A stretch of DNA of 64,000 nt from Mycolicibacterium sp. TY81 (lineage in GTDB: Bacteria; Actinomycetota; Actinomycetes; Mycobacteriales; Mycobacteriaceae): contig NZ_AP023362.1 in NCBI RefSeq assembly GCF_018326285.1, positions 4,712,001-4,776,000 on the forward strand, in the 5' to 3' direction. Below are positions 6,095 to 7,507 of the stretch, piece by piece (within the stretch, counting starts at the first letter, position 1; the number at the start of each line of letters is the position of its first letter). The position numbers and the translations under genes are program-made. The notes under the pieces are model-generated. The model worked only from the letters and a program-made list of their open reading frames with translations, was not told where the DNA came from and did no database searches.

Positions 6095-7507
6095 ATGTCT
6101 ACCCAGTCTGACGTCACGCTGCCCCTGACGCGCCGCGCCCTCACCGGGTTCGGCCGCACGGCACCGTCCGTGACAAACGTGCTGTCCACACCCGATGTCT
6201 CAGTGATCGCCGAGGCGGTCAAGCGGGTCGCGGACGCAAACTCTTCCAGCCCCGCCCACCTGCGCCGGGGCATCCTCGGCCGCGGACTCGGCCGGTCCTA
6301 CGGCGACCAGGCGTGCAACGGCGGCGGCATCGTCGTCGACATGACGGCGCTGAACCGGATCCATTCGATCAGCTCCGAGACCGCCATCGCCGACGTCGAC
6401 GCCGGGGTCAGCCTCGATCAGCTGATGAAGGCCGCGCTGCCATTCGGACTGTGGGTACCGGTGCTGCCGGGCACCCGGCAGGTCACCGTCGGCGGCGCGA
6501 TCGCCTCCGACATCCACGGCAAGAACCACCACAGCGCGGGCAGCTTCGGCAATCACGTGCTGTCGCTGGACCTGCTGATGGCCGACGGTGAGGTGCACAC
6601 CATCACCCCCGACGGACCGGACAGCGAGCTGTTCTGGGCCACCGTCGCCGGCAACGGGCTCACGGGCATCGTGATCCGGGCGCGCATCAAGATGACGCGT
6701 ACCGAGAGCGCGTACTTCATCGCCGACGGCATCGCCACGCACGATCTCGAAGAGACCGTCGCGGTGCACCAGGACGGCAGCGAGGACAACTACACGTACT
6801 CGAGCGCCTGGTTCGACCTGATCAGCCCGGAACCCAAGCTCGGCCGCGCCGCGGTGAGCCGGGGCAGCCTCGCCAAGGTGGATCAGCTGCCCGCCAAGCT
6901 GGCCAAGGATCCGCTCAAGTTCACCGCGCCGCAGCTGCCGGCGATCCCGAACCTGTTCCCGGTCAGCTTCATGAACAAGCTCTCGCTCTCGATGATCGGC
7001 GAGGCGTTCTACCGGATGAGCGGCAACTACCAGGGCAAGATCGTCAACCTGACGCAGTTCTACCACATGCTCGACATCACCTCGGGCTGGCAATATGCCT
7101 ATGGCCCAGCGGGATTCGCGCAGCATCAGTTCCTGGTTCCCCCGGATGCGCTCGAAGAGTTCAAGGGCATCATCCGCTGGATGCACACGCAGAAGCAGTA
7201 CTCGGCGCTGAACGTATTCAAGCTGTTCGGCCCGGGCAACAAGGCGCCGCTGAGCTTCCCGATGCAGGGCTGGAACGTCGCCCTGGACTTCCCGAACCGG
7301 CCCGGCGTCAACGAGTTCCTCAACGAACTCGACAAGCGCGCAATGGAATTCGGCGGTCGCGTGTACACCGCCAAGGACTCGCGCGTCAGCGCCGAGAGCT
7401 TCCACAAGATGTACCCGCGGATCGACGAGTGGATCGCCACCCGCCGCAAAGCCGACCCGAACGGCGTGTTCGCCTCCGACATGGCCCGCCGCCTCGAACT
7501 TCTCTAG
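6095..7507 (+). CDS. dprE1: decaprenylphosphoryl-beta-D-ribose 2'-oxidase subunit DprE1 (Ala at the benzothiazinone Cys position)
   Basis: 470 residues from ATG 6095; a TTG nine bases earlier is in frame but less likely. FAD-dependent oxidase that converts decaprenylphosphoryl-ribose to the 2'-keto form, the first half of DPA synthesis with DprE2. The FAD-binding (PCMH-type) region is clear: ARGLGRSYGD-like RGLGRSYGDQ, LPGTRQVTVGGAIASDIHGK and HHSAGSFGNH in the first 170 residues. The substrate domain contains FKLFGPGNKAPLSFP, and the conserved end is FASDMARRLELL. In M. tuberculosis the target Cys387 lies in GWNICVDFP; here the motif is GWNVALDFP with codon GCC (7280-7282), i.e. Ala396. Length and all other landmarks are normal, so the enzyme should be active. 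Confidence 0.97.
   Translation: MSTQSDVTLPLTRRALTGFGRTAPSVTNVLSTPDVSVIAEAVKRVADANSSSPAHLRRGILGRGLGRSYGDQACNGGGIVVDMTALNRIHSISSETAIADVDAGVSLDQLMKAALPFGLWVPVLPGTRQVTVGGAIASDIHGKNHHSAGSFGNHVLSLDLLMADGEVHTITPDGPDSELFWATVAGNGLTGIVIRARIKMTRTESAYFIADGIATHDLEETVAVHQDGSEDNYTYSSAWFDLISPEPKLGRAAVSRGSLAKVDQLPAKLAKDPLKFTAPQLPAIPNLFPVSFMNKLSLSMIGEAFYRMSGNYQGKIVNLTQFYHMLDITSGWQYAYGPAGFAQHQFLVPPDALEEFKGIIRWMHTQKQYSALNVFKLFGPGNKAPLSFPMQGWNVALDFPNRPGVNEFLNELDKRAMEFGGRVYTAKDSRVSAESFHKMYPRIDEWIATRRKADPNGVFASDMARRLELL

Follow-up and report, generated by a model that had tools for sequence, protein, structure and literature searches.

Analysis of a 64,000-nucleotide stretch of Mycolicibacterium sp. TY81 (contig NZ_AP023362.1, positions 4,712,001 to 4,776,000; the whole stretch is termed the window) indicates that its dprE1 gene, encoding decaprenylphosphoryl-beta-D-ribose oxidase, very probably belongs to an alanine (Ala) class of DprE1. 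In this class Ala takes the place of the reactive cysteine (Cys), is mostly carried on a diverged, exchangeable substrate-binding domain, and should let the enzyme escape covalent inhibition. The features concerned are as follows, with residues numbered on the window protein (query) or on the Mycobacterium tuberculosis enzyme (Mtb).

6095 to 7507, plus strand: dprE1, complete gene, 470 amino acids (aa), Ala-type.
6149 to 6151, plus strand: codon of Phe19 (Mtb Trp10), class-diagnostic and outside the block; Phe in 60 of 62 Ala rows, Trp in 55 of 56 Cys rows.
6707 to 7300, plus strand: substrate-binding-domain segment, query residues 205-402 (approximately Mtb 196-393), differing as a block between most Ala- and Cys-type DprE1 proteins.
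6962 to 6985, plus strand: class-diagnostic residues 290-292 and 297 (Mtb 281-283 and 288), within the published disordered region 269-297.
7265 to 7285, plus strand: reactive-site motif Q-G-W-N-V-A-L, with Gln391 (Mtb 382), Ala396 (Mtb 387), and Leu397 (Mtb 388).
7280 to 7282, plus strand: GCC, encoding Ala396, the position of the benzothiazinone-reactive Cys387 in alignment with M. tuberculosis DprE1.

The limits of the substrate-binding-domain segment are based on domain trees, sliding identity, breakpoint scans in relatives, and published domain limits. The protein scores 756.9 bits on the curated equivalog model NF053785 (cut-off 500), its predicted fold is that of a flavin adenine dinucleotide (FAD) oxidase with a substrate domain, as in solved DprE1 structures, and the gene is linked to dprE2 and aftA in the arabinan-precursor operon. 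From its sequence, the product is a predicted oxidase in which most of the compared pocket residues are conserved. An initial annotation had placed Ala at the reactive position of an otherwise complete gene. This observation is confirmed by alignment, with structural alignments also run, and by the intact reading frame, and its interpretation is partly supported. In the structural alignments, the window protein is 65-68% identical to full-length M. tuberculosis chains and 69-70% to 4aut and 4f4q. It differs from the M. tuberculosis and M. smegmatis enzymes (PDB 4fdo, 4fdn, and 4aut; 4f4q for the BTZ043 adduct) in its diverged substrate domain and in Ala at 387 and Leu at 388, so that the Cys387 of benzothiazinone (BTZ)-sensitive DprE1 is replaced. 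Ala at 387 is shared with the naturally BTZ-insensitive enzymes of M. abscessus and M. avium, and an M. abscessus protein, P0009, with the motif GWNVAMDF, is 89% identical to the window DprE1. The window combines Gln382 with Leu388, whereas most Ala-class proteins combine Ala382 with Met388.

Ala at the reactive site is ordinary by itself; what is unusual is how it is carried. For the genus survey, 396 Mycobacterium genomes, one per species and drawn evenly from a larger group, were searched with the motif FP[MI]xGWNxxxDF, which was found in 388 and missing from 8. Ala occurred in 155 and Cys in 233; because these counts sum to 388, there is no indication of a third residue, of a mixed genome, or of serine (Ser) among these motif-bearing genomes. 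In the family survey, Ala was present in 37 of 341 genomes, which fall in 4 of the 31 genera: the window's genus (16), the Rhodococcus-like genus g6 (11), g22 (1), and g24 (9). The named relatives, with 26 Ala and 54 Cys loci, lean towards the window's type because they are the best 80 of 585 confirmed candidates. Ala at position 387 of M. avium DprE1 and Ser at the reactive position in M. aurum, both invoked in the initial annotation, are stated in PMC3206020, and PMC9765218 reports that M. abscessus DprE1 has Ala and that BTZ043 and PBTZ169 are inactive on this species. By the two surveys, Ala is an ordinary residue here. Separately, Thr followed by Met was found at the reactive position in one of the 120 closest relatives listed.

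The difference between Ala-type and Cys-type DprE1 mostly extends over the substrate-binding domain (approximately Mtb 197-402) instead of being limited to one residue, and the large Ala class, the window included, is one domain lineage. Every one of the 23 named loci that are at least 76% identical to the window DprE1 carries Ala; the other three Ala loci lie at 65-71%, together with the 54 Cys loci. Trees of 125 rows were built after L001, L002, and loci lacking a dprE2 match of at least 230 residues had been left out (133 left) and then a further 8 with identical DprE1. The Ala/Cys label changes 3 times on the whole-DprE1 tree and 15 times on the tree of dprE2, the keto-reductase partner, where at least 9 of the changes are forced by well-supported branches. 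Divided by part of DprE1, the changes number 3 for the substrate domain without the motif, 2 for its core, 8 for the N-terminal FAD part, and 15 for the C-terminal FAD part. With the motif left out, the substrate domains of the Ala proteins from Mycobacterium, g6, and one g22 genome form a single clade of 62 rows. In careful trees of 50 rows, a subset of the 125 chosen by us, the Mycobacterium and Rhodococcus-type Ala proteins (22 of the 50 rows) form one substrate-domain clade with support of 98/98, and the label changes 3 times on the substrate domain and 12 times on dprE2. Forcing the g6 Ala and Cys proteins together on the substrate domain costs 89 log units (approximately unbiased test, p-AU 2.8e-74), and on dprE2, where the g6 proteins are one clade (100/100), a forced Ala clade costs 613 log units (p-AU 8e-63). 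Both constraints are rejected, with p-values that are post hoc and descriptive, the tested clades having been named after the first FastTree was seen. It can be observed from these trees that dprE2 does not track the Ala/Cys class. Repeated point mutation, in which Cys would have changed to Ala many times in ordinary DprE1 while the rest of the domain diverged independently, does not survive the domain trees as an origin of the main Ala class: the 62 Ala rows form one clade even without the motif, and dprE2 and rpoB break them up.

Signals of homologous recombination, replacing the substrate domain along with a varying share of the rest of dprE1 in an otherwise species-typical background, are observed in several relatives. 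In close Ala/Cys pairs, the FAD parts agree and the substrate domain falls to 69-74% aa identity. Between M. europaeum (Ala) and M. bohemicum (Cys), aa identity is 97% in the N-domain, 74% in the substrate domain, and 97% at the C-terminus, with fourfold-site identities of 84%, 58%, and 65%, respectively. Between L108 and L052, whose DprE2 proteins are identical, the corresponding values are 91%, 69%, and 100% for amino acids and 78%, 53%, and 91% for fourfold sites. The Ala locus L109 and its Cys counterpart L044 (R. fascians A44A) have 91-100% DNA identity in the flanks and 68-80% in sliding intervals starting at dprE1 bases 601-1051. In breakpoint scans of 11 triplets, which represent 9 different Ala genes, every triplet scored above each of 60 shuffles. 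The left end lay within query 205-213 for 6 triplets and the right end within 397-416 for 9 (approximately Mtb 196-204 and 388-407). PMC4366402 places the substrate domain at 197-412. The pattern expected of a mosaic gene, internal breakpoints together with synonymous divergence in the tract between them, was seen in relatives and not in the window's own gene. No description of exchange or recombination of dprE1 segments was found among the open-licence papers listed by the literature searches. Protein-level selection alone, by which parallel change of the substrate domain would make the domain trees agree with no import, could draw on the concentration of aa divergence in that domain and on a weak pooled synonymous contrast across g6. 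We consider it very unlikely: synonymous identity also drops in close pairs, from the C-terminus to the domain in L108/L052 and from the N-domain to the domain in M. europaeum/M. bohemicum, and the shuffles were beaten in every triplet.

Genus g6, in which L044, L051, L052, and L053 (Cys) were counted, holds both forms. Its rpoB tree comprised 22 species (9 Ala, 13 Cys) of the 24 searched, with G339 (split gene) and G287 (cut gene) left out, and contains 7 Ala/Cys changes compared with a mean of 7.2 for shuffled labels. Of the three genes compared, dprE1 alone displays Ala-Cys identity below that of Ala-Ala and Cys-Cys pairs; in the controls dprE2 and rpoB the three values agree within about one point. 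The drop is strong at Mtb 203-402 (59-89% vs 78-95% within class), moderate in nucleotide identity at Mtb 3-22 (80% vs 89-90%), and slight at 43-102. At the protein level, Ala-Cys and within-class identities are 80% vs 91-96% at Mtb 3-22, 88% vs 94-95% at 23-101, 97% vs 97-99% at 102-195, and 62-73% vs 94-99% in the substrate domain. One such pair is G249 (Cys) and G319 (Ala), with rpoB 99.6% identical and dprE1 DNA identity of 91.0% at query 12-204, 72.9% at 205-402, and 97.2% at 410-469. A difference at 27% of substrate-domain bases is too great for mutation since the two split, which again argues against repeated point mutation.

Several results, besides the post hoc naming of the tested clades, weigh against exchange of the substrate domain as a complete account. 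The tract varies: for L109/L044, intervals starting in the first 300 dprE1 bases are at 75-87% and N-domain fourfold identity is 58%, so that the import there covers most of dprE1, and longer tracts begin at query 133-176 in four scans and at 15 in one, ending at 432-436 in two. In g6, DNA trees give 1 change for query 12-170, 8 for 171-204, 1 for 205-390, and 9 for 410-469. Residues 12-170 therefore separate the classes as cleanly as the substrate domain and the N-terminal part goes with the class too, the mixed parts being 171-204 and the C-terminus. That the N-terminal 20 residues follow the class while 171-204 does not may reflect contact or epistasis between parts. Synonymous sites pooled over g6 are near saturation and separate the classes weakly. 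Across Mycobacterium, an rpoB tree of 30 genomes (the letters of G747, G475, and G655 being transferred from the genus motif survey) contains 5 changes compared with 9.7 for shuffled labels, demonstrating that the label is clustered, and the window's own lineage, whose clade is all Ala with no Cys sister at hand, yielded no recombination event. Furthermore, the main-locus dprE1 of g24 loci L222-L224 (G049, G066, and G175) carries Ala in a Cys-type domain, with GWNIAVDFP and Val388, apparently through independent, point-like cysteine loss. Both letters occur in a third type of substrate domain, found in Mycolicibacter-like mycobacteria and some others (L025/L048/L129 and L116/L117/L027/L038), and here positions 382, 387, and 388 differ jointly, P-C-L in Cys rows and A-A-M in Ala rows. 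On account of these exceptions, Ala probably arose more than once. They are what repeated point mutation would lead one to expect, and for the class as a whole that account is nevertheless improbable given the domain trees and the closely related pair above.

Two further points concern g24. The 66 Ala rows among the 125 all obey the rule that Ala never occurs without Met or Leu at 388, but the rule fails in g24, where eight of nine hits have Ala followed by Val (3) or Phe (5). In addition, five g24 genomes (L227-L230 and L226; G097, G122, G155, G222, and G213) have a stand-alone dprE1-like gene with GWNVAFDFP, away from dprE2; the main-locus copy is Cys in the four for which it was compared (G097, G122, G155, and G222). 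The four genomes with two dprE1-like genes, Cys at the main locus and Ala elsewhere, would suit an origin of the two classes as old paralogues of which each lineage lost one. This origin has very little to recommend it. The stand-alone copies group with one another (100/99) and not with the main Ala class, which also rules them out as its source. Moreover, genes of both classes adjoin dprE2 and mostly gtrA, the letters counted in the 388 Mycobacterium genomes add up with no overlap indicated, and loss of one old copy would not leave near-identical flanks around a diverged block. A self-resistance role for the stand-alone copies is not supported, as no biosynthetic cluster was seen among the neighbours at the three loci inspected of the five (L226, L227, and L230). 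In G213 and G222 the stand-alone gene ends a run of a PD40 propeller protein, an unknown protein, and a Glyoxalase_6 protein; at the third locus the neighbours are TetR, DUF7822, and sigma-factor-type proteins.

Regarding the window itself, its rpoB clade (support 99/99) also takes in the nearest relative sampled and two genomes whose motifs resemble those of Mycobacteroides, and all 7 genomes in it are Ala. Since this clade is uniformly Ala, the window dprE1 is best read as inherited within it, and Ala appears to have passed vertically. The Ala class would have reached the ancestor of the clade by domain exchange and subsequently been inherited. A dprE1 transfer between Mycobacteroides and the window group, suggested by DprE1 identity of 88-90%, was dropped, as rpoB joins the window with the two Mycobacteroides-motif genomes (100/99). 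The marker was rpoB and not gyrB because two gyrB-like genes of the window genome exceed the curated cut-off and a third falls below it (G000:C1:5092574-5094565, 608362-610263, and 1701733-1703739).

Class-diagnostic residues were sought by comparing 62 Ala with 56 Cys rows, requiring at least 93% on each side and setting apart the 7 third-type rows (4 Ala, 3 Cys). Twelve positions separate the classes: Mtb 10, 217, 281, 282, 283, 288, 338, 344, 353, 382, 387, and 388. Four of these fall in region 269-297, which is described as disordered in PMC4366402. Arg325 is invariant in Cys rows, whereas 50 of the 62 Ala rows, including that of the window, have Asn or Tyr instead. A set of 28 positions was compared, which we take to be pocket residues or their neighbours. 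Twenty-two of these are identical in all rows of both classes, including 60, 117, 132, 134, 228, 230, 314, 317, 323, 334, 336, 363, 365, 367, 369, 385, and 418; those that vary are 320, 325, 368, 386, 387, and 388.

Nitro-benzothiazinones are reduced by DprE1. They then react with Cys387 to give a covalent complex, as set out in PMC3206020, and Ser and Gly mutants at the reactive Cys are reported to be BTZ-resistant. A substrate domain lacking the thiol would form no covalent adduct, and the enzyme would thus escape covalent inactivation with most other compared pocket residues kept. Insensitivity of the window strain to covalent nitro-benzothiazinones is therefore predicted. This prediction of the initial annotation holds as such, in view of insensitive M. 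abscessus (Ala) and of PBTZ169 data for three species, the only ones for which a named locus could be paired with in vitro information, in which activity agrees with the Ala/Cys letter although locus and test strains differ. The minimum inhibitory concentration (MIC) is reported as >32 µg/mL for M. scrofulaceum (Ala) and 0.002 µg/mL for M. gordonae (Cys), and the compound as ineffective in vitro on M. chelonae (Ala). In mice, on the other hand, PBTZ169 lowered M. abscessus and M. chelonae counts although inactive in vitro, according to PMC10106926, so that resistance in vivo does not follow directly. The suggestion that non-covalent inhibitors could still act is borne out for one compound only: on M. 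abscessus, the nearest tested relative found, OPC-167832 is active (MIC 5.2 µM) and TBA-7371 is inactive (MIC >100 µM), as reported in PMC9765218. The treatment of Ala as a single substitution needs revision, since the residue is usually part of a diverged substrate domain exchanged between some lineages. In this respect natural enzymes differ from laboratory Cys387 (Cys394) mutants, which share the loss of the thiol through a single change, with reduced activity. For M. smegmatis DprE1, PMC8776228 describes C394A as active with a specificity constant approximately 5-fold lower and C394G as having negligible activity. The co-varying residues of the natural class would offset the catalytic cost of Cys loss, and such compensation would favour movement of the domain as a module.

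The genes adjoining dprE1 in the window are the following.

5590 to 6069, plus strand: gtrA-like gene upstream of dprE1, GtrA/DPMS transmembrane domain (Pfam PF04138, 60.8 bits).
7516 to 8295, plus strand: dprE2, keto-reductase partner (NF053786, 403.8 bits, cut-off 250).
8295 to 10181, plus strand: aftA, arabinofuranosyltransferase (PF12250 and PF12249).

A gtrA match adjoins dprE1 in 71 of the 80 named loci and lies on the opposite strand in most Nocardia and Rhodococcus-type loci. Mycobacterium sp. ST-F2 (L010) is 98% identical to the window in DprE1 and DprE2 and just 72% in GtrA, indicating that the upstream gene has its own history.

As to why two forms persist, the Ala class may be kept by a cause unrelated to inhibitors, such as the polyprenyl-phosphate substrate or contact with DprE2 or the membrane, with drug insensitivity a side effect. 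We give this nearly even weight: the two classes share most of the inhibitor-pocket residues listed, whereas dprE2 does not co-segregate with the class, which speaks against a role in matching DprE2. We also put forward, as a tentative and rather less probable idea, that the DprE1 substrate domain is a long-lived trans-species two-form polymorphism, swapped as a co-adapted module and held by balancing selection, most simply through DprE1 inhibitors occurring naturally in soil or through competing envelope chemistry there. Avermectins, of Streptomyces origin, are reported to inhibit DprE1 in vitro via the residue at Mtb 275, with no matching effect on cells and other targets suggested. Natural inhibitors are thus a possible reason for the two forms, and a difference in substrate lipid is as good a candidate. 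Mosaic drug-target genes are familiar from the penicillin-binding proteins of Neisseria and pneumococcus, in which insensitivity came via an imported diverged segment, as proposed for the dprE1 Ala class. In dprE1, however, the exchange runs between species and genera of mycolate bacteria, no drug exposure is known to us, and both forms persist.

Covalent DprE1 inhibitors are in clinical trials, and their target comes in two classes across the genus; since these divide Mycobacterium, lumping all nontuberculous species together is not justified. The failure of TBA-7371 on M. abscessus is a warning that the Ala class may likewise escape non-covalent compounds optimized against the M. tuberculosis domain. 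A distinct substrate domain accompanying Ala would account for the wide natural occurrence of Ala enzymes despite the impairment of lone Cys mutants. Selection maintaining both forms would imply a selecting agent in nature that could be sought. Should the two-form polymorphism be real, an ancient arms race would have left the intrinsic BTZ insensitivity of many nontuberculous mycobacteria as a side product, with natural inhibitors of DprE1 still to be discovered.
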